From a virus: a DNA stretch of 42,941 bases. The stretch's first letter is position 1. Every line of letters starts with the position of its first letter. The notes under the pieces are model-generated. The model worked only from the letters and a program-made list of their open reading frames with translations, did no database searches and had not been told where the DNA came from. The translations under genes and the position numbers were made by a program. Below, one piece after another: positions 969 to 42,941 of the stretch. The DNA lies in IMG/VR virus record IMGVR_UViG_3300035670_000453, positions 1 through 42,941 of that record; one strand, given 5' to 3'.

Positions 969-1118
969 CTACTCTTCTAGTAACTCTTTGATCGTCTTTT
1001 CAGATAGAAACCACTGATACCCTTTGCGGATACCCTTGAGTGATCCTCTCCAAATACGATTGTACAGTGTTCCCCATTTAATGCCTGTTAGTTTTTCTAC
1101 TTCTTTTAGTGTTTTCAT
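969..1118 (-). CDS. Small helix-turn-helix DNA-binding protein, 49 aa
   Basis: A short basic protein beginning MKTLKEVEKLTGIKWGTLYN. It has the layout of an excisionase/MerR-like helix-turn-helix: helix, LTGIKWGTLYNRI as the recognition region, then a basic wing (KGIRKGYQWFLS) and a last acidic helix (EKTIKELLEE). An AAGGA motif lies 3 nt before the ATG. It is the first gene after the promoter at 1127-1155, which contains a GTAG-N8-CTAC inverted repeat. It is therefore a candidate regulator of its own operon and of the other promoters with that repeat. That role is inference. Confidence 0.8.
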   Translation of the reverse strand: MKTLKEVEKLTGIKWGTLYNRIWRGSLKGIRKGYQWFLSEKTIKELLEE

Positions 1119-1126
1119 GTATCCTT

Positions 1127-1155
1127 ACTGTGTAGTATTTTCCCTACTTTGTCAA
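1127..1155 (-). promoter_or_regulatory. Sigma70-like promoter with GTAG-N8-CTAC operator (HTH operon)
   Basis: On the minus strand a TTGACA -35 (1150-1155) is followed by a 17-nt spacer and a weak CACAGT -10 (1127-1132). The spacer holds the inverted repeat GTAG-N8-CTAC (1132-1147). The -35 overlaps the stop of the gene ending at 1152, so this restarts transcription for 969 and downstream genes. The same architecture recurs at 3629, 4039 and 40322. Confidence 0.6.
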
Positions 1156-1481
1156 TCCTTATTTTGTTTATATAAAAGACTCTCTATACTTGGGAAGTCT
1201 ATTTGTATGCCTAGTTTTTCTCCTAGATGTTTACTTAGTGTTTCAAATATTTTGTCTATCTCTTTGGTAGTGAGTTCTGTTGTGCTTTTTTTATTAAGTT
1301 GAGCGATCATAATTGGTCGCCAAATAAACTCCTTAACGGTTTCTTTTGACCACGGTATATCTACCTCTGGCTTGAGTGTTCTTTTCATATCCAAGCCAGC
1401 ATCGTTTAATTCAGTTGCTAATTGGTCAAAAAGAAGGTGCATTGCTGAGTTTTGAGTGATCGTTCTTTTTTTCTCCTGCAT
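1152..1481 (-). CDS. Putative NinB-like recombination accessory protein, 109 aa
   Basis: The opening (KRTITQNSAMHLLFDQLATELNDAGLDM) resembles the start of phage NinB-type proteins, where a basic TxxQN-type motif precedes helices. The middle holds VDIPWSKETVKEFIWRPIM. NinB-like proteins bind single-stranded DNA and assist phage recombination. The neighbouring annealing-protein candidate (1876-2241), the SSB-tailed protein (1625-1873) and NinG elsewhere in the genome make that role plausible. The assignment rests on remembered family appearance only, and a different recombination or replication accessory role is possible. Its start overlaps the end of the upstream gene. Confidence 0.6.
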   Translation of the reverse strand: MQEKKRTITQNSAMHLLFDQLATELNDAGLDMKRTLKPEVDIPWSKETVKEFIWRPIMIAQLNKKSTTELTTKEIDKIFETLSKHLGEKLGIQIDFPSIESLLYKQNKD

Positions 1482-1623
1482 ATCGCTCTATATCCTCTTT
1501 AGTAAGACTAGCCCTGATCTTTGGCTCTACTGTTTTGCCTAGATCAAACCCCCCTTGGGTTTCGAGCCATTCTTTATACCAAGGGGAGTAGTCTAGTTTT
1601 TGTTTTAGGGGTTGGAATTGCAT
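1426..1623 (-). CDS. Hypothetical protein, 65 aa
   Basis: Unrecognised. The sequence opens MQFQPLKQKLDYSPWYKEWL and ends in a charged, probably disordered tail. It starts 2 bp from the stop of the SSB-tailed protein gene and overlaps the next gene by 56 bp in another frame, typical of tight early operons. The last third is coded on DNA shared with the downstream gene, so its composition there is constrained. No metal site or membrane segment. Confidence 0.6.
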   Translation of the reverse strand: MQFQPLKQKLDYSPWYKEWLETQGGFDLGKTVEPKIRASLTKEDIERYAGEKKNDHSKLSNAPSF

Positions 1624-1624
1624 A

Positions 1625-1873
1625 TCAAAATGGAAAATCGTCAGGATCTACGGCTGCCTGCTTATTTTGTCTCTCCTCAACTTTAACCGATTTTGAGAAA
1701 TGAGGTATTTTAGGGTTTTTCTCTAAGATCTCTCGAGGTGTTCTATTAAGATAGAGTTTTTCGCCTGGCTTGAGTACCACATCTTCGTCTGAAGTGTTAG
1801 TGATGGCTAAGTATTCGCGGCCGTCTTCTCGTTTATTTACATATCCGCTGAGTATTTTTTTATATTCTGGCAT
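1625..1873 (-). CDS. Small protein with SSB-like acidic C-terminal tail, 82 aa
   Basis: The body (about residues 1-58) looks like a small beta-rich fold with LSGYVNKREDGREYLAI and a KPGEKLYLNRTP turn. The C-terminus ends in DPDDFPF. This matches the acidic Asp-Asp-x-Pro-Phe tip by which bacterial single-stranded DNA-binding proteins recruit partner enzymes. A role as phage SSB, or as a mimic of host SSB contacts, is inferred from that tip and from the adjacent annealing-protein candidate. AAGGATTAACT before the ATG supplies the ribosome site; near-identical copies precede the genes at 14118 and 6142. The body is shorter than a canonical OB-fold SSB. Confidence 0.72.
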   Translation of the reverse strand: MPEYKKILSGYVNKREDGREYLAITNTSDEDVVLKPGEKLYLNRTPREILEKNPKIPHFSKSVKVEERQNKQAAVDPDDFPF

Positions 1874-1875
1874 AG

Positions 1876-2241
1876 TTAATCCTTTACAACTTTTCTTTGT
1901 ACTGGTGAGTCTGCAAGTCGTTGGCCTTCATCTAGCTCGTCTCCGGTGAATTGCGTCCCGTAACCACACATTGCCAATGCTCTACCGATAGCGCCGGTTT
2001 CAGCCTTTTCTAAGTAATCAGGAAAGCCTTTTACATTCTCTGCTTTGTGAGCCTGGGCAATTATCATTCCTTTCTCGTTTGTTATAGTTGCTTTCATCTG
2101 TACCGCTCCAGGGGCTGAGTTGACTATTTCAGTCGTTATACTCCAATCTTTATGTTCTTCTCTAAACCATACTAATCGCCATTGTACCTGTAGGTAGTCT
2201 TTGCCTTTAATCTGCATCAAATGTTCGTTTGGATTAAACAT
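1876..2241 (-). CDS. Probable Rad52/Erf-like ssDNA annealing protein, 121 aa
   Basis: Contains the segment EKAETGAIGRALAMCGYGTQF (about residues 80-100). I recognise it from phage and plasmid proteins in the Rad52/Erf-like annealing group, where a similar EKAET/K-AIxRAL motif marks the DNA-binding core. The preceding region (YLQVQWRLVWFREEH, VKATITNEKGMIIAQA) fits the strand-strand-helix layout. Such proteins pair complementary single strands during recombination-dependent replication. At 121 residues it is shorter than typical Erf proteins, so it may be a minimal core. It is directly followed by the SSB-tailed gene. Family placement is from memory, not a search. Confidence 0.6.
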   Translation of the reverse strand: MFNPNEHLMQIKGKDYLQVQWRLVWFREEHKDWSITTEIVNSAPGAVQMKATITNEKGMIIAQAHKAENVKGFPDYLEKAETGAIGRALAMCGYGTQFTGDELDEGQRLADSPVQRKVVKD

Positions 2242-2771
2242 TATTTTGTCTCCTTCACTATTTTATATCCGTTACTTTTTAATAACTCGATAGCTTGCTT
2301 GGCAGCATCATCTTCTGGCTTTTCATCGTAGTATTCAAATTCACAATCACCTTTACCAATGAGTTGGTTGTTTTCACTATCATCAATAAAGGTTAGCTCT
2401 TCGCTTTTTTCTCTCCATCCAAAGAAACGACCAAGAGTTAGTTTGATTTTGCCGGACACCCAAGCGTTGCCGTACACCCGAGCGTTGCCATACACCCGAG
2501 CGTTGCCGAATACCTCGGCAATGCCATACACCCAAGCGTTGCCGTACACCCGAGCGTTGCCATACACCCGAGCGTTGCCGAATACCTCGGCAATGCCATA
2601 CACCCAAGCGTTGCCGCACACCTCAGTTTGAAGGTTTGATTCTTTTTCAATCCATCCACCTTTATCACCCTTACTTACAGAGCCAAATGACACAAGTGCT
2701 TCGATTCTAAATAGTTTCACTCCCCAAGCATTTACTTTAGTTTCATTAGTTAGTTTATATTTCTTTTGCAT
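2241..2771 (-). CDS. Hexapeptide-repeat beta-helix protein, 176 aa
   Basis: About residues 50-106 consist of consecutive six-residue units of the type G-N-A-R/W-V-Y or G-I-A-E-V-F. This is the pattern of a parallel beta-helix (left-handed hexapeptide fold). The N-terminal part (TNETKVNAWGVKLFRIEALVSF, then KGDKGGWIEKESNLQ) is like phage-encoded relatives that begin with a short cap. The C-terminal 60 residues are charged and non-repetitive. Function is unknown, and there is no acyltransferase catalytic His in the repeat. The DNA for the repeats contains a perfect 72-bp tandem duplication, so length may vary between isolates. Its ATG overlaps the preceding stop. Confidence 0.8.
   Translation of the reverse strand: MQKKYKLTNETKVNAWGVKLFRIEALVSFGSVSKGDKGGWIEKESNLQTEVCGNAWVYGIAEVFGNARVYGNARVYGNAWVYGIAEVFGNARVYGNARVYGNAWVSGKIKLTLGRFFGWREKSEELTFIDDSENNQLIGKGDCEFEYYDEKPEDDAAKQAIELLKSNGYKIVKETK
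2456..2615. repeat. 72-bp tandem duplication within hexapeptide-repeat gene
   Basis: Two adjacent identical 72-bp blocks (2456-2527 and 2528-2599) plus 16 bp of a third. Each block is four 18-bp units, one unit per beta-helix rung. The identity at synonymous positions shows a recent duplication rather than protein-level conservation. Confidence 0.92.
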
Positions 2772-2881
2772 TATTGGTTTTCCTCTTCTAATTTATATTG
2801 TTGTTTAGCTCGTAAGTAACAAGAGCGCACAAACATGCTGCCGGCTAGTATTGAGCCGATGAGTAGTAAAATATCGTTCAT
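2771..2881 (-). CDS. Small membrane protein, 36 aa
   Basis: Starts MNDILLLIGSILAGSMFVRS, a single hydrophobic helix (about residues 3-19), then a short charged tail ending EEENQ. The ATG overlaps the stop of the preceding small gene (ATGA) and its own TAA overlaps the next ATG, so it sits in a tightly coupled chain. A GGGGGA site precedes the start. No family recognised; a single-helix phage membrane peptide of unknown role. Confidence 0.65.
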   Translation of the reverse strand: MNDILLLIGSILAGSMFVRSCYLRAKQQYKLEEENQ

Positions 2882-3054
2882 AAATCCCCCTTCCACTCTT
2901 TTGCAGCTTCTCTCGCTGCTTGTAATGCCTTATTTTCGTTTGTTTCTAGTAATTCCTCAGCCATATACCCAAGCATTGTTCTAAGCTCATCTTGGGTCAT
3001 CGCAATGCCTCGGTAGTCGTGGGCATAAATATCTATAATTTGTTGTTTAGTCAT
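2878..3054 (-). CDS. Hypothetical acidic helical protein, 58 aa
   Basis: Opens MTKQQIIDIYAHDYRGIAMT and is helical and amphipathic throughout, without cysteines or membrane segments. It overlaps the upstream gene by 8 bp and the downstream ATG by 4 bp, which supports it as a real member of the operon. No family recognised. Confidence 0.65.
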   Translation of the reverse strand: MTKQQIIDIYAHDYRGIAMTQDELRTMLGYMAEELLETNENKALQAAREAAKEWKGDL

Positions 3055-3232
3055 TTGTCCCCCTTACGATGTCAATTGCTTCTAATATTCCGTTTACGTA
3101 GCCTTGATCTAGTTTATAGTTAAGATCGTTCTCTTGAGTGTTGCTGTTAAGGTAAGCAAGACCTGATTCTGATTCTCTACGTTTTGCCTCTAAGAGTTCA
3201 GCTTCTAAGTTTTTGAGTATTTTTTCTTTCAT
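3047..3232 (-). CDS. Hypothetical coiled-coil protein, 61 aa
   Basis: A highly charged helical N-terminus (KILKNLEAELLEAKRRESES) suggests a short coiled coil. The rest (YKLDQGYVNGILEAIDIVRG) is a second helix. The layout resembles small phage proteins of unknown role that precede recombination genes. The ATG overlaps the stop of the gene at 3229 (ATGA), consistent with translational coupling. Confidence 0.65.
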   Translation of the reverse strand: MKEKILKNLEAELLEAKRRESESGLAYLNSNTQENDLNYKLDQGYVNGILEAIDIVRGTND

Positions 3233-3402
3233 ATATCTTCCCTATTGTGCTCAATAAAGTTAATTAAATTATCTATAGCTTCATCTCGCCTGTCTGGATC
3301 ACTCAGTAAATCAGGAATCATATCGTCAAGTACAGGTGAGTTGTCGAGTATAAAGCTATCTACCAATTCTGAGAGTGCTTTTTTAAGTTGTGAGCCTGTC
3401 AT
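3229..3402 (-). CDS. Hypothetical acidic protein, 57 aa
   Basis: Sequence starts MTGSQLKKALSELVDSFILD and is strongly acidic and helical, with DDMIPDLLSDPDRRDEA in the middle. Both ends overlap neighbouring genes by four bases in ATGA form, so the reading frame is well supported by context. No known family. Acidic small phage proteins can act as DNA mimics or inhibitors, but nothing here proves it. Confidence 0.65.
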   Translation of the reverse strand: MTGSQLKKALSELVDSFILDNSPVLDDMIPDLLSDPDRRDEAIDNLINFIEHNREDI

Positions 3403-3602
3403 CTTGCCTCCCCAAAGTTATCTAGCCATAAACTTTCATAAGTCTCCACCCAGTCATCATTGCTTTCCTGGCGGTCATCTCGCTCCAACTCTTTGTCCTC
3501 TTGAATCAACTCTAGCTCTCTAAGTGTTGGCTCTTCGCCACAGTCGTAACAGTAATTTAATTCTCCCCCTGGTCCTGGTACTACGTTTTCATGTAGACAC
3601 AT
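3399..3602 (-). CDS. Small zinc-ribbon-like protein, 67 aa
   Basis: MCLHENVV followed by YCYDCGEEP gives a C/H plus CxxC pattern (C2, H4, C18, C21) that could bind one zinc ion. The rest is an acidic helix ending DDWVETYESLWLDNFGEAR. It is the first gene of the operon driven by the promoter at 3629-3657. A GAGAGGAG ribosome site precedes the ATG, so this transcript has a real 5' leader. Unknown function. Confidence 0.7.
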   Translation of the reverse strand: MCLHENVVPGPGGELNYCYDCGEEPTLRELELIQEDKELERDDRQESNDDWVETYESLWLDNFGEAR

Positions 3603-3628: not shown

Positions 3629-3657
3629 ATTATGTAGTACTACTCCTACATTGTCAA
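3629..3657 (-). promoter_or_regulatory. Sigma70-like promoter with ATGTAG-N8-CTACAT operator
   Basis: TTGACA (3652-3657), 17-nt spacer and CATAAT (3629-3634) on the minus strand. The spacer and flanks carry the inverted repeat ATGTAG-N8-CTACAT (3632-3651). It reads toward the 3602-1152 operon. The promoter at 40322 is nearly identical, which argues for a shared regulator. Confidence 0.75.
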
Positions 3658-3686: not shown

Positions 3687-3792
3687 TGAGGGTGGCGAGA
3701 TTCGAACTCACCTTTCGAAACAGTATAGGCTCTATAAACCACTGCTCTGTACATATTTATAGATTCAGCGTTACCAACTCCGCCACACCCTC
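3687..3792 (-). tRNA. tRNA-like RNA with non-canonical anticodon region
   Basis: The minus strand folds into a 7-bp acceptor (GAGGGTG with CACCCTC, extendable to 9 bp), a D-arm (GCG, loop with GG, CGC), and a standard T-arm (GTGAG, loop TTCGAAT, CTCGC), followed by discriminator A. No CCA is encoded. The 56 nt between the D-arm and T-arm are about 20 nt longer than in a leucine-type tRNA, and I find no 5-bp stem with a 7-nt loop. Instead TCTATAAA and TTTATAGA form a perfect 8-bp helix around a 17-nt loop. The amino acid cannot be assigned. It may be a degenerate or intron-bearing tRNA, or a tRNA mimic. Confidence 0.55.
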
Positions 3793-3811: not shown

Positions 3812-3887
3812 AAAAAAACCCTTGGTCGTCCAGCAATTGGCTCGGGCTGTAACCAAGATCAGTCCGAACCCCGTGCATCCAAGGGTT
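3812..3887 (-). ncRNA. Structured RNA with 9-bp closing stem and U tract
   Basis: The minus strand pairs AACCCTTGG (3879-3887) with CCAAGGGTT (3817-3825), closing a loop that contains a second helix GGTTCGG/CCGAGCC. Seven T residues follow the closing stem, as in an intrinsic terminator. Several TTGG and CCAA segments inside could pair in alternative ways. It lies in the gene-free stretch downstream of the promoter at 4039-4067. It may be a discrete small RNA or a switchable terminator. Confidence 0.55.
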
Positions 3888-3896
3888 AAAAAGCGT

Positions 3897-3965
3897 CTTA
3901 CAAAGTGTTTATCTAGATCTTGAATGCTCAGAGACACTCCGAGGAACAATCTGGCACTCTGTAAG
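3897..3965 (-). ncRNA. Structured RNA with 11-bp stem
   Basis: CTTACAGAGTG (3955-3965) pairs with CACTTTGTAAG (3897-3907) over 11 positions with one G-T wobble. Inside is a 7-bp hairpin CTCGGAG/CTCTGAG with a TGT loop. The GTGCC at the base can alternatively pair with GGCAC about 40 nt upstream, suggesting two exclusive folds. It is transcribed from the 4039-4067 promoter together with the next element. No known RNA family recognised. Confidence 0.5.
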
Positions 3966-4038
3966 TTATTATTACTATTTTTAGTTCTTGAAACGTGCCA
4001 AACCCCTTACGATTGTTTGTACCTTTCAAGGTATATAT

Positions 4039-4067
4039 AGTGTAGGGTATCTACTACGCTTTGTCAA
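4039..4067 (-). promoter_or_regulatory. Promoter of the RNA region with GTAG-N8-CTAC operator
   Basis: TTGACA (4062-4067), 17-nt spacer, TACACT (4039-4044). A GTAG-N8-CTAC inverted repeat (4042-4057) overlaps the -10 and spacer. No gene follows on the minus strand until 3602, so this promoter appears to transcribe only the structured RNAs and possibly the tRNA-like element. Confidence 0.65.
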
Positions 4068-4164: not shown

Positions 4165-4350
4165 TCACAAAAGCGTTTCTTTAACTGCTACCTCTAAATG
4201 GTCTACGGGTTTCCATTGATTCTCGGGTATATGTTTAGGTGCGGTTTTAGCTGCCTTTAATATCTTAGCTTGTAATTCTATTGCTTCTCTACGCTCTGGG
4301 TGTAGTTTCCACTGGGTACGTAGGTTAGCTAGTTGTTGGTCTATGGTCAT
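4165..4350 (-). CDS. Hypothetical protein, 61 aa
   Basis: The start at 4350 is chosen because its ATG overlaps the TGA of the HTH gene (ATGA); the frame stays open a little further upstream without a better site. The protein opens MTIDQQLANLRTQWKLHPER and is helical and basic. No known family. It is co-transcribed with the HTH gene and followed by a terminator, making a two-gene unit. Confidence 0.65.
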   Translation of the reverse strand: MTIDQQLANLRTQWKLHPERREAIELQAKILKAAKTAPKHIPENQWKPVDHLEVAVKETLL

Positions 4351-4586
4351 AAAAAGCGGCCAAGGATATCTCTTTTGCGCCAATTAAAGTTTTGTTTATT
4401 TTCGTCAAACGTCTCTAAAATCCAAGCCATTACGTCATCGGTGTTAAATCTTTTAACAGTTCTACCTTTTAAGACTTCGCTTGTTGCTGGCATATTTTTA
4501 TAGTCACCCTTTAATAACCGTCTGAATGACTTAACTGGTAATCGCATATATTGTGCCATCTGTGGGGCATTTATGTATTTTTTCAT
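4347..4586 (-). CDS. Helix-turn-helix DNA-binding protein (excisionase/MerR-like), 79 aa
   Basis: Residues 1-58 read as an excisionase-type winged helix: INAPQMAQYMRLPVKSFRRLL as the helix-turn-helix, then a linker and GRTVKRFNTDDVMAWI as the wing and closing helix. Such proteins bind operators or shape DNA; with no integrase visible, a regulatory role is more likely. Upstream, a perfect inverted repeat GATATAG-N3-CTATATC (4613-4629) overlaps the -35 of its promoter, which suggests autoregulation. The transcript would start at or next to the ATG, because the -10 ends only 6 nt before it. Confidence 0.75.
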   Translation of the reverse strand: MKKYINAPQMAQYMRLPVKSFRRLLKGDYKNMPATSEVLKGRTVKRFNTDDVMAWILETFDENKQNFNWRKRDILGRFL

Positions 4587-4592
4587 ATAACC

Positions 4593-4622
4593 TTATTATT
4601 GCTTATTTGGTTGATATAGCAA
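4593..4622 (-). promoter_or_regulatory. TTGCTA-type leaderless promoter with operator, HTH gene
   Basis: TTGCTA (4617-4622), 18-nt spacer, TAATAA (4593-4598), then 6 nt to the ATG at 4586. The geometry equals that of the structural-gene promoters. A 7-bp perfect inverted repeat with a 3-nt centre (4613-4629) overlaps the -35. Confidence 0.6.
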
Positions 4623-4629
4623 CTATATC

Positions 4630-4861
4630 TTAATAGTATAAAGTGTATCAATTTACTCAGTCTTGTTATGCTAGATTCCGCAGCCGTTCCCTAGAGGAGT
4701 ATTAAATCCTTTATTATGAGTGCTAGTAAATACTTGTTGTTAGCGGGTTTCTCAGGCTTCCAACCCATTACTGGAGTGTCACCGCAAAACTGGTACGTGT
4801 ATTTAAAACGTGGTGCGCTTGCAAAGCTGAGTTCCTTGCGCCCCTGCTGTAGACATCGGGT
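4630..4861. other. Gene-poor segment with possible stem-loops
   Basis: No credible gene. The minus strand has a TTGATA-like box near 4645 and several short potential hairpins, such as GGGTT/AACCC near 4745-4766 and a GCGC-flanked loop near 4814-4840. A 25-codon minus-strand frame at 4691-4768 lacks a ribosome site. I see no tRNA. The segment could be the 3' tail of the 4862 transcript or carry a small RNA. Confidence 0.4.
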
Positions 4862-5334: not shown

Positions 5335-5502
5335 TTAATCTTCGTCAGACTCTTCGTCATCGTTTAAATCGGCTAGTAGCATTTCGATCAATCTAAGTTC
5401 ATATTCATCAGTGGTATTGAGGTAGCCATTGCGTTCTGCGGCCTTCTTTTCAAGGCGTTCTAGGCGTTTCTCAGCTAGTTCTCGTTGTTGTTCTTTATTC
5501 AT
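5335..5502 (-). CDS. Small charged helical protein, 55 aa
   Basis: Starts MNKEQQRELAEKRLERLEKK, a strongly charged helix likely to form a coiled coil, and ends in an acidic tail DDEESDED. No family recognised. The nearest ribosome site is a pyrimidine-flanked AACCC stretch with no clear Shine-Dalgarno. The TATAAT at 5576-5581 is the nearest promoter-like box. Small acidic-tailed coiled-coil proteins are common in phage lysis or late regions, without assigned roles. Confidence 0.6.
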   Translation of the reverse strand: MNKEQQRELAEKRLERLEKKAAERNGYLNTTDEYELRLIEMLLADLNDDEESDED

Positions 5503-6577: not shown

Positions 6578-7629
6578 TGTTTTAACCTTTCAAGTACTGA
6601 GTTAATAAGTTGTGTCACTCTGTTTACAACAATAGGTGACATTTCTTTTTTATATGTTTCCATTTTTGTTTCCATTGCAGAAACTCTGGCAAGAAGTGTT
6701 TCGTTTTGCTTCTTTTCGCGGTCTAATTCAACCTGCTGTTGCTCAATCTCTTTACGAAGTTTGTCAATCTCGATTTTTAACTCATCTTTCTCAAGGGTGT
6801 TTTTCTTTTCTTGTTGTTCTAGACGTTTATTCGCATCTTTGAGTTGGTTTTCTACCTCTAAGAGGCGGTCTACTGCGCCAATAATTTGAGCTTTATCTAC
6901 CACGACAGAAAGTTTGCCAGCAAGTGTTTCAAGAAACCCAGTAAGCTCTTTTGTTTTTTCTTCGGTGATTGTTTTTTGTTCTTCATAGTCTGCCTTAGCT
7001 TCTTGCCACTTATCCCAGTTGTCTTGATTTTCATGTCGTAGTCCTTCCCATTCTTGTTGTGTGTAGGTCTTTTCTGAACTGTTCGGGATTTCCGAACTGT
7101 TGTTCTCAATTTCTTTTACCCACTTAACCTCATAAGGCTCTACTTTTGGGGGGTATTTTGGCGGATTAGGATCAAGTGGGTGTTGGGGGTCTAAATAGCC
7201 TAAATTCTGGCTTCTAAGCCCGTAAAGGCGATTACCCTTCTCGTCTGTTTGCACAAAGTTAAAATGCACGTGGTCGGCTGTTGAATTACCCGTTGACCCC
7301 ATCTCACCAATCGGATCACCAGCTTTTATTCGTTGGCCTAGTTTTACTAGGTTATGTTCTAGGTGACATACCTGAACCATACAAAGCTGTTTATCATCCC
7401 AGATTTTAACGTTGTCACCGTAGGGTTTAGTTCCCTTGTCCTCATCATGTATCACTTTCCCACTAATAGGGGATCGAACTATAATCTTTTTGTTTTTGTG
7501 TCCAAAGTCAACGCCTTCGTGGTAGAGGATGCCGAATTGTTTGTAGTAGGTGGGGCGAAGGCCATAGCCTTGAGTGCAATAAAAACCATCTAATGAGAAT
7601 GTGTCGAGTAATGTAAATGTTTTAGGCAT
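6574..7629 (-). CDS. Endolysin, M23 zinc metallopeptidase with coiled-coil tail, 351 aa
   Basis: The N-terminal 140 residues form an M23 (LytM/lysostaphin-type) peptidase. Zinc ligands are H37 and D41 in HEGVD and H122 in HVH; H89 in CHLEH and H120 are the usual catalytic partners. The domain cuts peptide cross-links of peptidoglycan. Residues about 195-345 are a long charged coiled coil, unusual for a simple endolysin; it could dimerise or tether the enzyme. There is no signal peptide, so export would need the holin next door. It begins inside the end of the small basic gene at 7622. A virion-associated role is the alternative. Confidence 0.85.
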   Translation of the reverse strand: MPKTFTLLDTFSLDGFYCTQGYGLRPTYYKQFGILYHEGVDFGHKNKKIIVRSPISGKVIHDEDKGTKPYGDNVKIWDDKQLCMVQVCHLEHNLVKLGQRIKAGDPIGEMGSTGNSTADHVHFNFVQTDEKGNRLYGLRSQNLGYLDPQHPLDPNPPKYPPKVEPYEVKWVKEIENNSSEIPNSSEKTYTQQEWEGLRHENQDNWDKWQEAKADYEEQKTITEEKTKELTGFLETLAGKLSVVVDKAQIIGAVDRLLEVENQLKDANKRLEQQEKKNTLEKDELKIEIDKLRKEIEQQQVELDREKKQNETLLARVSAMETKMETYKKEMSPIVVNRVTQLINSVLERLKQ

Positions 7630-34955: not shown

Positions 34956-35250
34956 GTTCTCTTTCTACTATTTTAGCAGTCTCCACCATTCTCTGCTCAG
35001 CACCTTTTAATAACTCAACTATTTCTTTAGCCACCCTAGCTTTAGCCCACATAACATTATATGCACGCTGAAATTCCTCATCTGATTTAAATTCTTGAGG
35101 ATCTAACCACTTATTGTCCTGGGATAGGAGGGGTAGGAGGTGCGCTTGGAAGTCCTGGTTGAGCCATAGGCGGTTGAGCGCCTGCTGCTGCTGCAGCTGC
35201 TGGGTCAAGAGCTGGATTTTGTTGGATATCTGTAAAGAATCTTGTAGCAT
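34918..35250 (-). CDS. Hypothetical helical protein downstream of portal, about 110 aa
   Basis: The part past the portal stop (WLDPQEFKSDEEFQRAYNVMWAKARVAKEIVELLKGAEQRM) is a convincing helical protein. The beginning overlaps the last 140 bp of the portal in another frame, where its Gln/Leu-rich composition is forced by the portal's Ala/Pro tail. The ATG at 35250 follows a GAGGAGG-like stretch at a long distance; an internal start near residue 75 is also possible. Alternatively it is reached from the portal by a +1 shift. No family known. Confidence 0.55.
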   Translation of the reverse strand: MLQDSLQISNKIQLLTQQLQQQQALNRLWLNQDFQAHLLPLLSQDNKWLDPQEFKSDEEFQRAYNVMWAKARVAKEIVELLKGAEQRMVETAKIVEREHVKSGQKPTPTK

Positions 35251-37090
35251 CTCGTGTCCCCGCCTCCTCAAAGAGTTCGGTTAAGATTTCTGAGGTGTTT
35301 GGCCTCTTACCTTCTTGTGCTAGGAATTGTACCACATTGGCGTTATTGAATAGTAAGTCTACTGCTCTCTGCCGTGCATTAGCCATATCAGCACTTGCAC
35401 CACTACTCATACTCTTAACGTCAGGTACATAATCATAAACACCCTCTAGATCGTCAGGAGTTAAATAGAGATTAGCTTCAGTTCCCGTCTCATCTATTGA
35501 CATTTTAGGCTTGATCTTTAACTTCTCTGGATTTTTCTCTCCAGGGTTCTCTACTACTGGATAACGAGGTGTTTCACCTGCTTCTACCAATGATTGCAAT
35601 TGTCCATCGCTAATATCACCCTCTGATTGTTGAATAACATCACCGATGGTATTTATTGCTTCAGGAGTAAGTTCCATTTGGTCAAGTCCTGCTTGTTTGA
35701 AGAAGGCAAAGTCTTTTTCACCAATAATTTTGAGTACATACTCGTGCATATCGGGATCAGCAAATAAGAATTGACGGTTATTAGATAACCACATACCCAT
35801 CATGTCTTTTAGTGCATCAGATAGGGCGTTTTGGTTGTCTTGATCTCGTACATTACGCTGTGCTGCTATATCTTTAACTTCTGTAGCTGTTTTGTCTGGG
35901 TTAAATGGATCAGTTGCCCCTACTCCCTGACTTGCATCACCCATTGCGGTATTAAATGCTGCAATCAAAGCGCTATACGTTGCTTGGAAGTACCGAAGAG
36001 GCTCACCACTACCACTGTACTCTTGTACTGAATCAAGTTTGTTCATCACCCAAGTAGCATCAGGACCATATTGCAGGGTTTCCATGCGTACTTCACCCTC
36101 AATTACTTTAAGTGGTGGTCGCATGTGGATGTTCATGGTGTCTAGATAACCATTAAGTGTTGCCTGAATAGCTCTCCAGAGTGGTAACACACTCTCAACC
36201 TCTGACTCACCCCATGGATCATCGGATAATGGGAAGTATTTTAGTTGAACAACCGGAATTTTACGATGTTTATATGGGTTATCTATGTCTCTAAGGATTA
36301 CATTATGTTTAGGAGAGAAGGTAATCCATCGATCAGAACGATACTCAGTCACTACTTCTACCACGGGGAATGATTTATCTTGACCAAGGCGATCTTCTAA
36401 TCCTTTTAAGTCTTTAATTCTCGAAGTGTAGTTACTATCTCTGCGGTCTTGTGCACCATCAGCCATAATAGCTTTTAGTTTAGAGAGTCCTGGGTATTTA
36501 ACCTTGCCATCTTTATTGGGAAACTCGTTCTCGTTCTCTAATTCTTCCATTGTTCTATACTCAGAGACCTGTACCCACTTAGCATCACGTACGTTATTAC
36601 CATGTGTTAAGCCCACATTGCGCACATCTAGAGGTTTGAAGTCATTACCATTGAAGATACATTTATCTTCGTCATCTTTTTCATATCTCCAAGTAACTAA
36701 ACCGAAACAAGAAGCAAAGAGCCGAGTGTCTTGATCCATCGTACCCCACTTGTAGTTCATTGAGCCGCCATCATTTGCGTTGTCCCATTGATAATCGAGT
36801 AAGGTATTATTAATACGAGCACTAATAATATCGCCACCCTCTCTGGGAACTAAACGACCACGAAGCTTTGCATTAGTAAGACGAGCTTTCTTTTCTACAA
36901 TGGTAGTTCTAAGACGAGGATCAACAACTTGTGAGAGGTAAGGCCAGTTATCAGGTAAGCGACCAAAGTAAGCATCTAGGACATCATTCCAACCGTTCTC
37001 TCGATTCATTCGAGTATCGCGGTCGTCTGTCCATTCTTGGTAATGAGTCTGTACTTGTTCGAGGATATCAAAGTTTTTGTTTTCAGCCAT
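35111..37090 (-). CDS. Portal protein, 659 aa
   Basis: A large single-chain portal of the podovirus type: ILEQVQTHYQEWTDDRDTRMNRENGWNDVLDAYFGRLPDNW at the N-terminus, the wing and stem region with RYEKDDEDKCIFNGNDFKPLDVRNVG, LPLWRAIQATLNGYLDTMNIH (clip/stem helix) and IGEKDFAFFKQAGLDQMELT. The C-terminal 40 residues are Ala/Pro rich (AAAAAAGAQPPMAQPGLPSAP) and probably extend into the capsid. Twelve copies should form the DNA entry ring. The ATG at 37090 is preferred over an upstream TTG because of the promoter geometry. It overlaps the next gene. Confidence 0.82.
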   Translation of the reverse strand: MAENKNFDILEQVQTHYQEWTDDRDTRMNRENGWNDVLDAYFGRLPDNWPYLSQVVDPRLRTTIVEKKARLTNAKLRGRLVPREGGDIISARINNTLLDYQWDNANDGGSMNYKWGTMDQDTRLFASCFGLVTWRYEKDDEDKCIFNGNDFKPLDVRNVGLTHGNNVRDAKWVQVSEYRTMEELENENEFPNKDGKVKYPGLSKLKAIMADGAQDRRDSNYTSRIKDLKGLEDRLGQDKSFPVVEVVTEYRSDRWITFSPKHNVILRDIDNPYKHRKIPVVQLKYFPLSDDPWGESEVESVLPLWRAIQATLNGYLDTMNIHMRPPLKVIEGEVRMETLQYGPDATWVMNKLDSVQEYSGSGEPLRYFQATYSALIAAFNTAMGDASQGVGATDPFNPDKTATEVKDIAAQRNVRDQDNQNALSDALKDMMGMWLSNNRQFLFADPDMHEYVLKIIGEKDFAFFKQAGLDQMELTPEAINTIGDVIQQSEGDISDGQLQSLVEAGETPRYPVVENPGEKNPEKLKIKPKMSIDETGTEANLYLTPDDLEGVYDYVPDVKSMSSGASADMANARQRAVDLLFNNANVVQFLAQEGKRPNTSEILTELFEEAGTRDATRFFTDIQQNPALDPAAAAAAGAQPPMAQPGLPSAPPTPPIPGQ

Positions 37091-37096
37091 GAGAGT

Positions 37097-37126
37097 AAGG
37101 TATACTAAGTAGAAACTGGTTAGCAA
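37097..37126 (-). promoter_or_regulatory. TTGCTA-type leaderless promoter for the portal
   Basis: TTGCTA (37121-37126, followed by ACC), 18-nt spacer, TACCTT (37097-37102), then 6 nt to the ATG at 37090. TATACC at 16-nt spacing is an alternative -10. There is no Shine-Dalgarno before the ATG. Confidence 0.58.
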
Positions 37127-37414
37127 CTACTCACGATAGATACGCTCAATTTTAATTATTCGATGCACTTCTACTATTTTTCTCTTTGATGCTGTGTTCT
37201 GACATATGCCACAAATACGCAGAAAGTCATCAGTAAATACTTCAAATAGGAATGGCGATATTTCTTTAGGCATCTCTCTACCACAAGTTTGACAGTACCA
37301 GACATCTTGGATAGCTTCTTTAACTAAGCCACCTATAGAACCACCGTATTTAGTCCACTTGCCCGATTTCTTGCCGTAGAGAGGGTCGCTTCTGTCTAAA
37401 TGTTTATTTGGCAT
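37127..37414 (-). CDS. Zinc-ribbon protein between terminase and portal, 95 aa
   Basis: Two CxxC pairs (WYCQTCGREMP and RICGICQNTA, about residues 40-45 and 68-73) form a classic zinc ribbon. The basic N-terminus (MPNKHLDRSDPLYGKKSGKW) suggests DNA or RNA contact. Located between large terminase and portal, it may help packaging, but no family is known. The ATG overlaps the terminase stop (TGATG). Confidence 0.72.
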   Translation of the reverse strand: MPNKHLDRSDPLYGKKSGKWTKYGGSIGGLVKEAIQDVWYCQTCGREMPKEISPFLFEVFTDDFLRICGICQNTASKRKIVEVHRIIKIERIYRE

Positions 37415-38670
37415 CACTTAATACTCCATTTATTTCTAGATTGTTGATTTAGTCTCACTACACTAAGAGTTGAATCTTTATTATCTTTTTTGTAGTTCAT
37501 GGCAAAGTAACGGATCATATCCATAGCATCATCATCACGTTTAAGAGGTACTTCTTTGATTCCCGTATTGAGTCCGGTCTTTTGTTCCATCCATCTATAT
37601 TTTTCAAACTCATCAGCTATCCAGGTTAGATGCTTACTAAACATAAGAGTAGGCTTACCAGTATCTGCTCGTAGTTTAAGCAACTCGGCTACTTTAGCGA
37701 TACCGCTCTTTACTGAGTCTGCTCCCTTTTCTATAGGTGTGAAGTGGACACCATATCTAGAGAGTTCCTCAATCTGCATTGGTTGAGCACTATCTGCTAC
37801 TGCGTTGAGAATATGCTTACCTGAGTCTTTTAACTTAACAGCATCGGCTATTTCACTAGTGGTCATGCCAACCTCATAGAGTCCGTCAAAGACATACATC
37901 TCTGTACCTATAGAGTTAACTGCAAAGTAACCGAGTGCTGTCTTATGAGCAAAGCCAAAGTCTAACGCTCGATAAATGTTATAGCCTCGTATATCAGGTA
38001 CATCTACCATGTGTACTTGTCTGTTGAATGTCTTATAGATAAGCCCTGACATTTTTCTAAACTCACCCAAGACCTCTTGAGCAAATGAGTCCTCGTCCAT
38101 TTCTCGCTTCATAGCATCTATTTCAGTTACGGGCATGAACGGATTATCATAGGTGGTGTAGTGATGGTAGCTCCACCCTTCTTCATTCATCTCTGCAAGC
38201 TCTTTAAAGTGGTTGAAACCGTTAGGAGTTGAGATAAACCACACATCAGCACTAGAGTCAGCTAGAGTTGGTCGGATAACCTTCCACACCTCTTCCCATC
38301 TCTCAAAGAAAGCCACCTCATCAAAGATACAAAAGTCTATACGCACACCTCTTAGTGAATCGGGGTTATCTGCGCCCTTTAGGTAAATCTTTGAACCATT
38401 CTTTAATTCAAAGCAGAGTTCTGTCTCGTTTTTCTTTTCTATTGCTTGTTTGGGGATAATCTCTTTTAACATCTCCCATAAGATTTGTTTAGCCTGTCTA
38501 TATGTAGGTGCTATATACCAAGAAATCGATTTACTATGTTCGATTGCAAATTGGGTGAGCTTAACTGCACCTATAGTTGTTTTACCACCGCGCCTACCAA
38601 TGTTAATTACCTTGTAGCGAGCAGGGTCATCCCATACGATGGTTTGCCACTCACTGAGTTTTATTTCCAT
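37414..38670 (-). CDS. terL: Large terminase subunit (ATPase/nuclease), 418 aa
   Basis: Walker A GRRGGKT at residues 25-31, Walker B CIFDE near residue 115 and motif III STPNG near 150 mark the packaging ATPase. The RNase H-like nuclease domain has ALDFGFAHKTALG (first Asp), AVADSAQP (second) and DDAMDMIRYFA (third). It cuts and pumps concatemeric DNA through the portal. The start at 38670 is used because it follows the small-subunit frame; a TTG 12 nt earlier is possible. It overlaps the small terminase by 20 bp. Confidence 0.93.
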   Translation of the reverse strand: MEIKLSEWQTIVWDDPARYKVINIGRRGGKTTIGAVKLTQFAIEHSKSISWYIAPTYRQAKQILWEMLKEIIPKQAIEKKNETELCFELKNGSKIYLKGADNPDSLRGVRIDFCIFDEVAFFERWEEVWKVIRPTLADSSADVWFISTPNGFNHFKELAEMNEEGWSYHHYTTYDNPFMPVTEIDAMKREMDEDSFAQEVLGEFRKMSGLIYKTFNRQVHMVDVPDIRGYNIYRALDFGFAHKTALGYFAVNSIGTEMYVFDGLYEVGMTTSEIADAVKLKDSGKHILNAVADSAQPMQIEELSRYGVHFTPIEKGADSVKSGIAKVAELLKLRADTGKPTLMFSKHLTWIADEFEKYRWMEQKTGLNTGIKEVPLKRDDDAMDMIRYFAMNYKKDNKDSTLSVVRLNQQSRNKWSIK

Positions 38671-39076
38671 GTTTAATGACAATTAAGCCTTCTAATGGAT
38701 TCTCTTTATCACCTGCTAAGATTCTCTTCTCTGTTTCAATATAGCCATGATTAGATTTAAGAAGAAAAATTGACATTGTTGGATTAAACTTTCCGATAAG
38801 ACCATTCTCGACTAAAGAAGCCTCTTGCAAAGCAAAAATTGCGTTTATTGTGTTAGAAAATTCTTTTTTGTCTTCGTCTTTACACCAATCCCAAATAGTT
38901 TCTCTAGCTACTTCAAGTTCTGCTGCTAAAGCACTTATGCTTGGTACATCAATTTTAATTTGTTTTGGTGGGTCAAAACCTTCTGAAACAACAAGCATTC
39001 CTTTACATTTTTGAAGATACTCTTTAGCTAATACTAATTTTTCTTCTGAATAAAGTGTTGGTCTACCTGCAGGCAT
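38651..39076 (-). CDS. terS: Small terminase subunit, 141 aa
   Basis: GRPTLYSEEKLVLAKEYLQ and IDVPSISALAAELEVARETIWDWCKDEDKKEFSNT give a helix-turn-helix-like DNA-binding N-terminus. LIGKFNPTMSIFLLKSNHGYIETEK is the oligomerisation segment typical of the gp3-like small terminase group. It recognises the packaging start and stimulates the large subunit encoded downstream. TATAAT lies 6 nt before its ATG, predicting a leaderless message. Confidence 0.85.
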   Translation of the reverse strand: MPAGRPTLYSEEKLVLAKEYLQKCKGMLVVSEGFDPPKQIKIDVPSISALAAELEVARETIWDWCKDEDKKEFSNTINAIFALQEASLVENGLIGKFNPTMSIFLLKSNHGYIETEKRILAGDKENPLEGLIVIKHGNKTQ

Positions 39077-39093: not shown

Positions 39094-39264
39094 CTATCTA
39101 TATACAGATCTCAAGAATAAAACTATTAAGAAAGAAATAAGTGTGCCACATATAATACCAGCGAGAAAGTAATAAATGTATGGTAATGGGTCAGTGCTGA
39201 TATAAAGAGTGACATGAGATGGGTTATTGAGTAATGCTGAACCTGTAGCATAAAATTGTGTCAT
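39094..39264 (-). CDS. Small membrane protein, 56 aa
   Basis: A polar N-terminus (MTQFYATGSALLNNPSHVTLY) and a strong membrane helix (residues 31-51, YYFLAGIICGTLISFLIVLF) followed by a basic end (LRSVYR). It could be a holin or a superinfection-related membrane peptide. It overlaps the previous gene in ATGA form. No family recognised. Confidence 0.65.
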   Translation of the reverse strand: MTQFYATGSALLNNPSHVTLYISTDPLPYIYYFLAGIICGTLISFLIVLFLRSVYR

Positions 39265-39461
39265 TGTAATATATATCTTACACCACGTGCTTTACCCATT
39301 TTTTCTGGTTTACTTAAAATGTTATAGCCATCTGCTTTTAGTTCTCTAATTCGCTCACTTACTCTAAGTATCCACATGTCTCGAATAGCTCTAAAGCTGT
39401 GTAGGCCTTCAGGATTTTCTTGTAAGTATTCTAAAATGCGTTCTTTTTGTGATTGTTTCAT
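39261..39461 (-). CDS. Winged-helix DNA-binding protein (HTH_39-like), 66 aa
   Basis: The layout QKERILEYLQENPEG, then SFRAIRDMWILRVSERIRELKADGYNILSKPEK, then a basic wing (GKARGVRYILQ) is the small winged helix seen in many phages, where the RVSERIRELKADGY segment contacts DNA. It probably regulates phage genes. Which promoter it binds is unknown, and the GTAG-N8-CTAC sites are candidates. The 4-bp overlaps on both sides indicate co-translation. Confidence 0.75.
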   Translation of the reverse strand: MKQSQKERILEYLQENPEGLHSFRAIRDMWILRVSERIRELKADGYNILSKPEKMGKARGVRYILQ

Positions 39462-39763: not shown

Positions 39764-40315
39764 TTATTTTAAATAAAATGGCGTAACTCCTACTTTATGA
39801 CTACAACTCCAGGGACTCCAGCCCTGACGCTTAAATATCTTATATGCGTAGTCTATATTAGCTTTATAGTCCTGCATGTTAGGTTGTTTGTGTATACTAT
39901 TAATCTGGAATATACCTTCATCAATTGAGCCGTTTCTGTTATGGTTTATTGCGTTTGGATTAAGTCCTCTATTTTCACACTCGAGTACTTTCATAGCATC
40001 ATCGTAGTCTTCTCCAAACACTTCATAAATATATGCCTCTATATTATTCTTAAATACTGGCTTGGGTTCTTCTTTGGCTTCAACTATGGTAGTGGAGATA
40101 TAAGGGGTGACGTAGGGGCTAATAAGGTCTGTAGTCTCTTCTGACTTGAATTGTAATCCGAAAATATAAAAACAAAGACAGCTAACAAGAATGAGAGCAT
40201 TAATCCCAAGATAACCCCTAATAATAGTTTTACTAGTATGCGCATAGTATGTCCCTCCAATACCTTTTATTAGTTGTTTGTTTTTGTTGTGTGCTAGTCT
40301 ACTTCGTGCTTTCAT
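39764..40315 (-). CDS. Membrane-anchored lytic transglycosylase (SLT/lysozyme-like), 183 aa
   Basis: Residues 34-53 (GYLGINALILVSCLCFYIFG) form one membrane helix after a basic N-terminus, so the domain lies outside the cell. The C-terminal part has VLECENRGLNPNAIN with the catalytic Glu (about residue 112), then DEGIFQINSIHK and NIDYAYKIFKRQGWSPWSCS, a lysozyme-like SLT core. It cleaves glycan strands. The start at 40315 is chosen because the CATAAT box ends 6 nt before it; a longer frame would run through the promoter. Its regulated early-type promoter suggests a role other than lysis, perhaps wall remodelling or exclusion. Confidence 0.78.
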   Translation of the reverse strand: MKARSRLAHNKNKQLIKGIGGTYYAHTSKTIIRGYLGINALILVSCLCFYIFGLQFKSEETTDLISPYVTPYISTTIVEAKEEPKPVFKNNIEAYIYEVFGEDYDDAMKVLECENRGLNPNAINHNRNGSIDEGIFQINSIHKQPNMQDYKANIDYAYKIFKRQGWSPWSCSHKVGVTPFYLK

Positions 40316-40321
40316 ACCACT

Positions 40322-40350
40322 ATTATGTAGTAGTTCTCCTACATTGTCAA
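40322..40350 (-). promoter_or_regulatory. Promoter with ATGTAG-N8-CTACAT operator, transglycosylase gene
   Basis: TTGACA (40345-40350), 17-nt spacer and CATAAT (40322-40327), with the inverted repeat ATGTAG-N8-CTACAT over the spacer, exactly as at 3629. Six nt separate the -10 from the ATG at 40315. Confidence 0.75.
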
Positions 40351-40353
40351 GCA

Positions 40354-40503
40354 TCATTTATAGGCACGTTTGAAGGGTGATTTTTGTGCGTTAATGTGGG
40401 CTAGTTTCTTTTTACATTCCTCAGAGCAGGTTTTGCGGTATTTAGAGCTGCCAACGAGCTTAAGAGTGAGTTTCTTACAAATTAAGCATTCACCTGGTTT
40501 CAT
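40354..40503 (-). CDS. Small zinc-finger protein, 49 aa
   Basis: MKPGECLICKKLTLKLVGSS then KYRKTCSEECKKKL: CxxC and CxxxC pairs that form a treble-clef-like zinc site. The rest is basic. The start overlaps the NinG stop (ATGA). DNA or RNA binding is likely by composition. It may be a split-off partner of NinG, whose own site has similar pairs. Confidence 0.7.
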   Translation of the reverse strand: MKPGECLICKKLTLKLVGSSKYRKTCSEECKKKLAHINAQKSPFKRAYK

Positions 40504-42899: not shown

Positions 42900-42941
42900 T
42901 TAATACGACCACGACCTCGACCACGACCACGACCTCGACCA
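42900..42941 (-). CDS. (Trp/Arg)-Ser dipeptide-repeat protein, 3' part
   Basis: Continuation of the gene that starts at 165. Reading from 42941, six dipeptides (WS, RS, WS, WS, RS, WS) are followed by Tyr and TAA at 42902-42900. Codon phase and repeat phase both match base 1, which is the main evidence that the ends are contiguous. The downstream gene's ribosome site begins about 10 nt after the stop. Confidence 0.72.
   Translation of the reverse strand, partial: WSRSWSWSRSWSY
42906..42941. repeat. 6-bp tandem repeat CGACCW, right end
   Basis: Six perfect copies (4 ending in A, 2 in T), identical to the repeat at 1-126 and in phase with it. Together at least 27 units lie inside one gene. 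Confidence 0.95.

Follow-up and report, generated by a model that had tools for sequence, protein, structure and literature searches.

The virus genome analysed here contains four main sigma70-type promoters (S1 to S4), each carrying a 16-bp inverted repeat, GTAGGR-N4-TACTAC, downstream of its -35 box. This repeat is, with a probability of about two in three, the putative operator of a phage-specific regulator controlling all four promoters. The window, which is the whole of the 42,941-bp IMG/VR virus record IMGVR_UViG_3300035670_000453, carries almost all its genes on the minus strand.

The motif is composed of the half-sites GTAGGR and GTAGTA with a free centre (N4). A preliminary description of this DNA had reported four copies of GTAG-N8-CTAC between TTGACA and the -10 box. 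Both the coordinates (Table 1) and the placement proved exact, with a perfect -35 and a 17-bp spacer in 4/4 promoters, and the extension to ATGTAG-N8-CTACAT, noted for two copies, is that of S2 and S4. The tighter, asymmetric consensus GTAGGR-N4-TACTAC fits all four sites when each is aligned in its better orientation. At S1, S2 and S4 it runs in promoter direction, starting 2 bp after the -35 and covering about -27 to -12, whereas at S3 it runs opposite to the promoter, starting 4 bp after the -35 and covering -25 to -10. The GTAG-N8-CTAC repeat occurs four times in the window versus 0.50 expected from 100 dinucleotide shuffles (largest count 3; 0/100 reach 4), and each copy is preceded, at a distance of 2 or 4 bp, by a perfect TTGACA on the minus strand. 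In 600 further shuffles, TTGACA-N2-4-site and GTAGGRN4TACTAC reached means of 0.0017 and 0.008 per shuffle, respectively, versus four each in the window. The chance that four randomly placed sites all fall behind TTGACA is about 8e-12. Moreover, a survey of noncoding promoters (TTGAC[AT] with a -10 at 16-18 bp) found exactly four in the window, each of them carrying the motif.

Within the 29-bp promoter core, 22-27 positions are identical among S1 to S4 (27/29 between S2 and S4), whereas in the flanks 10-20 of about 52 positions agree, which is near chance. The four promoters are therefore not copies of one segment, and duplication of a promoter segment was ruled out by the unrelated flanks together with the inverted S3. 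The sequence is kept when inverted and shifted at S3, which argues for an operator rather than a part of the core promoter and resembles what a dimeric protein would recognise through its two half-sites.

Table 1 Promoters, putative operators and associated features. Positions refer to the window unless another phage is named.
Feature	Position	Strand	Description
S1 promoter	1127-1155	-	TTGACA 1150-1155, 17-bp spacer, CACAGT 1127-1132; putative operator 1132-1147 GTAGGGAAAATACTAC
S2 promoter	3629-3657	-	TTGACA, 17-bp spacer, CATAAT; putative operator 3634-3649 GTAGGAGTAGTACTAC
S3 promoter	4039-4067	-	TTGACA, 17-bp spacer, TACACT; putative operator 4042-4057, consensus on + strand (GTAGGGTATCTACTAC)
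S4 promoter	40322-40350	-	TTGACA, 17-bp spacer, CATAAT; putative operator 40327-40342 GTAGGAGAACTACTAC
HTH49	969-1118	-	49 aa, directly behind S1; Pfam PF12728 (HTH_17), E 6.6e-6
S2 operon	1152-3602	-	small genes and recombination genes
NinB/Orf-like recombination mediator	1152-1481	-	S2 operon
Homologue of Thermus phage P23-45 protein annotated ssDNA-binding	1876-2241	-	S2 operon
tRNA-like element	3687-3792	-	S3 unit; Rfam RF00005, 39 bits; long insertion in anticodon arm
Hairpin with T run	hairpin about 3819-3887, T run 3812-3818	-	directly after DUF3800-V RNA; fold z -3.8
DUF3800-V RNA	3886-3983	-	S3 unit; Rfam RF02964, 55.1 bits (gathering 37.4)
HTH79	4347-4651	-	79-aa HTH gene with own promoter
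Palindrome at HTH79	4613-4629		GATATAG-N3-CTATATC, perfect, 17 bp, over the -10 of HTH79's own promoter
Terminase small and large subunits, portal	35111-39076	-	downstream of S4
wHTH66	39261-39461	-	66-aa winged-helix protein (HTH_39), S4 unit
Membrane-anchored transglycosylase	39764-40315	-	behind S4; SLT_3, E 1.4e-5; phrog_34720 transglycosylase
CGACCW 6-bp tandem repeat	1-125 and 42905-42941		contig ends, in phase
L004 (IMGVR_UViG_2775506977_000002), GTAGGA-N4-TCCTAC	5395-5441 and 7092-7107		beside CI/S24-like repressor gene; inside TTGACA-AT-site
L024 (MW202497.1), GCAYAAGC-like element	11609, 16324, 17465, 41154, 41604, 42650		one in front of TerL

The four units behind these promoters are those named in the preliminary description, namely an HTH gene, a small-gene and recombination operon, an RNA region and a membrane-anchored transglycosylase. 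In the S3 unit, the DUF3800-V RNA match is full-length (model positions 1-96 of 96) and above the Rfam gathering threshold, and to our knowledge no function has been assigned to this RNA so far. No DUF3800 gene is present in this record, and the RNA was not found in 12 relatives. The neighbouring tRNA-like element, not called by ARAGORN, may be either a mimic of a tRNA or a tRNA that bears an unusual insertion. In the S4 unit the transglycosylase is followed by TerS, TerL, portal and structural genes. S4 itself falls within a longer alternative ORF starting at 40357, and the transglycosylase more likely starts at 40315, immediately behind the promoter. The start codons of HTH49 and of the transglycosylase lie 37 and 35 nt, respectively, after the first base of the -35; from these distances the transglycosylase mRNA is probably leaderless, and that of HTH49 may be leaderless or nearly so. 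Because the same in-phase repeat occupies both contig ends, the genome is probably circular or permuted, with the assembly broken in the terminal repeat, in which case the S1 unit would extend across the early genes, include NinG and reach as far as S4. Two further features were observed. Between HTH49 and the next gene, the minus strand at 850-960 is noncoding and has long complementary arms (TGCTGAGGT...ACCTCAGCA), possibly an attenuator or small RNA. At 2449-2624, 36/72-bp coding repeats are found in a YdcK-type beta-solenoid protein (Pfam PF18836).

A terminase search of viral contigs yielded 44 loci, of which the majority share 60-74% identity; the last few are distant. Across 570 kb of related loci, a scan found no exact copy of the motif. 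A scan of relatives for it had been proposed earlier, and what that scan found instead is that five relatives (G004, G005, G006, G011 and G013; terminase 61-67% identical) each carry a private element of their own, over or between the -35 and -10. The accompanying expectation, that finding the motif no more often than by chance in the genome set would count against a regulon, is misleading, since operator sequences vary between phages. The private element is TTGACTTRTAAATRATATSATTTATAAT in G004 and TTGACATTAAATNNGTAAAGTRGTA in G006 (each with two sites and one with 4 mismatches), TTGACATTAATACAAAAGTAAAGTA in G011 and TTGACAGATTAGTAAAGATAG in G013 (two sites each). In G005 it is TTGACA-NN-TGTRAA, an inverted repeat including the -35 itself, at four sites. 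The elements of G006, G011 and G013 have no obvious palindrome, so their regulators need not be homologous. Same-genome promoter pairs with at least 9/17 identical spacer bases number 19, whereas permutations gave 3.9 on average and at most 12; leaving out the window, there are 15 versus a mean of 3.6 and maximum of 14. The promoter survey found no private repeated element in G007, G009 and G012, and a private promoter element is thus common in this phage group but not universal.

Other searches outside these loci returned no second copy of the network. Those relatives that were identified with the 121-aa recombination-operon protein as query (L085-L093) are without it, and the first 25 kb had no megablast match among phage records. 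A looser promoter-plus-palindrome scan of viral contigs produced 18 stretches with a single match each and no related network, and many of them resemble coding sequence; in one (L098), GTAGTA-GAAC-TACTAC accompanies a good promoter, yet a second site is absent and no relation is evident. In the Manatee Spring phage L024, a GCAYAAGC-like element occurs in either orientation in several promoter spacers, and seems to be the private element of a more distant phage. L024 was ruled out as the same phage as the window, its terminase being only 33% identical.

The targets behind the private elements are conserved. A membrane-anchored peptidoglycan-type enzyme lies downstream of one private site in 5/5 relatives, as in the window. 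This wall enzyme matches SLT or SLT_3 (Pfam) in G004, G006, G011 and G013, and in G005, where a Pfam match is absent, we read it as RlpA-like. In the window, as in G005 and G013, 35-36 nt separate the first base of the -35 from the ATG of this enzyme. In addition, a recombination or ssDNA-annealing operon stands behind another private site in 4/5 relatives, again as in the window, with ERF in G006 and G011 and YqaJ in G013 identified by Pfam; the second target of G005 is, by eye only, similar to the window's ssDNA-binding-type protein. The third site of G004 precedes a 344-aa gene without Pfam match. Particularly, G005 keeps the gene order of the window, comprising a noncoding RNA region, a small Cys protein, a possible ssDNA-binding protein, a NinG-like HNH protein, the wall enzyme, which would be leaderless as well, and TerL. 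For the relatives, genes were taken as simple ORF calls. Because the promoters were already known when the targets were compared, the significance of this comparison is rough and no exact probability is given. Conservation of targets and place while the sequences turn over is the strongest argument for what appears to be a real, evolving regulatory circuit.

We infer that, most likely, a dimer of a phage-encoded helix-turn-helix protein binds the spacer site and, as a repressor, excludes RNA polymerase from the promoter. Repression is favoured over activation because a perfect -35 with a 17-bp spacer needs no activator. Such a protein would lower expression of several units together, namely the DUF3800-V RNA, the operons for recombination and for transglycosylase/packaging, and the operon of the regulator itself, and HTH49, if it is the regulator, would autoregulate its own operon behind S1. 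Its role may be that of a phage-wide off switch or of a late shut-off. Counted against this circuit are the weak -10 of S1 (CACAGT), the three relatives without an element and the missing lysogeny families. In the window, S24 (PF00717) and HTH_3 (PF01381) gave no match at E <= 1, and family searches found no tyrosine integrase, resolvase, XRE or CI. There is therefore no evident sign of lysogeny, the usual rationale for a repressor acting phage-wide, and the label 'lysogeny control' is unjustified. Of the regulon proposed in the preliminary description, the spacer operators, their presence at every noncoding consensus promoter and the parallel in relatives are borne out, and for the regulator itself there are candidates only.

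HTH49 is the best candidate by position, and it is possible, somewhat short of an even chance, that it is the predicted binder. Its HTH_17 match scores 26.7 bits versus a cut-off of 27, and its match to TIGR01764 (E 0.004) is below cut-off. Small HTH genes adjoin or neighbour private sites in four relatives, which favours HTH49: a 47-aa HTH_7 protein ends at a private site in G013, a 107-aa weakly HTH_17-like protein and an HTH_23-type domain lie beside one in G006 and G011, respectively, and a 56-aa HTH_17 protein lies one gene behind one in G004. The earlier choice of HTH49 as a candidate thus gains support from these neighbours and from its location directly behind S1. wHTH66 is the second candidate and an unlikely one, and the remaining likelihood falls to another phage or host protein. 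Single-sequence structure predictions of HTH49 and wHTH66 are of low confidence (pTM 0.37 and 0.43). HTH79 is less likely to regulate S1 to S4 because a different perfect palindrome covers its own promoter, which looks like a second, separate operator. A direct search of viral contigs confirmed no homologues of HTH49, HTH79 or NinG.

The site might instead be the box of a host regulator, such as LexA of the SOS response, adopted by the phage to couple its gene expression to the condition of the host. Phages often adopt LexA, and the 4-N8-4 geometry is that of the E. coli LexA box, CTGT-N8-ACAG; moreover, no CI-type repressor is encoded in the window. However, the relatives carry different elements on the same targets, and the promoter-plus-operator pattern TTGACANNGTAGGRNNNNTACTAC has no exact match in 84,980 cellular genomes, a strict pattern for a host that is possibly outside the collection. 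A search for the host through the terminase gave no match in genomes. On balance we consider a host box unlikely.

An activator of MerR/HTH_17 type, which would sit in the spacer, remodel the promoter and switch the genes on, is distinctly improbable. In its favour, the MerR-like winged helices include HTH_17, the palindromes bound by MerR activators lie in the spacer, and the -10 boxes of S1 and S3 are weak. Yet promoters activated in this way need 19-20-bp spacers, and all four here have a perfect -35 and a spacer of 17 bp; HTH49, at 49 residues, is also too short to accommodate the dimerisation helix or the sensor domain of a MerR protein. It is very improbable, too, that the likeness reflects only promoter strength and a favoured spacer, arisen by copying or convergence, without any regulator. 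The near identity of S2 and S4 would fit this view, and near-identical promoter pairs are found in some relatives too. Against it stand the unmatched flanks, the inverted and shifted element at S3, the spaced inverted repeat with a free centre and the differences of private elements among genomes, which do not agree with a common spacer preference of the host polymerase. The putative phage-specific operator remains the preferred reading.

A wider and tentative reading is that this lineage, with no recognisable lysogeny genes, keeps a fixed regulon while the operator and its regulator of about 50 residues are swapped or re-specified per genome, giving an immunity-like specificity. The regulon would then comprise the recombination and cell-wall-enzyme/packaging operons and, in two genomes, an RNA unit as well. 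Our analysis indicates that an operator network may be read from the raw sequence of uncultivated phages, with a private motif per genome and targets conserved across genomes. If an HTH protein of about 50 residues does control the whole programme, it would be among the smallest phage master regulators. Where no lysogeny module is evident, operator turnover at fixed targets would prompt the question why specificity diversifies. In addition, the placement of DUF3800-V RNA under putative phage control offers a usable clue to its role.

The same site recurs at several phage promoters above chance, and the S1 to S4 network belongs to a known kind, the dispersed phage operators. The CI/S24-type prophage operator of L004 has the same half-site and the same 16-bp length. 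Unlike the window's site it is fully symmetric, and it belongs to an unrelated phage whose repressor is not homologous to any detected window protein; the likeness is probably convergence. The window copy of DUF3800-V RNA (RF02964) stands in a record without a DUF3800 gene, under a putative phage operator. As in the lambdoid CI/Cro switches, inverted-repeat operators overlap the -35/-10 region and specificity changes between relatives, there as immunity. In contrast to these switches, the window has single sites at four dispersed promoters instead of clustered tripartite operators, and a CI, S24 or XRE protein was not found in it. The operators and stoperators of cluster A mycobacteriophages (L5, TipsytheTRex) likewise consist of a repeated, dispersed site at promoters, with site and repressor sequences varying among related phages and a small phage-encoded HTH protein, here a candidate (PMC9283540, PMC6550527). 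Cluster A phages have more than 20 asymmetric 13-bp sites, also within transcribed regions, where they stop elongation too, and their repressor, about 183 aa long, has two DNA-binding domains and binds as a monomer (PMC9283540). The window, however, has four 16-bp inverted repeats at promoters only. Moreover, repression is lost on site reversal in cluster A (PMC9283540), whereas one of the four window sites, S3, is naturally inverted. These differences from cluster A stoperators and lambdoid switches are specific and testable.
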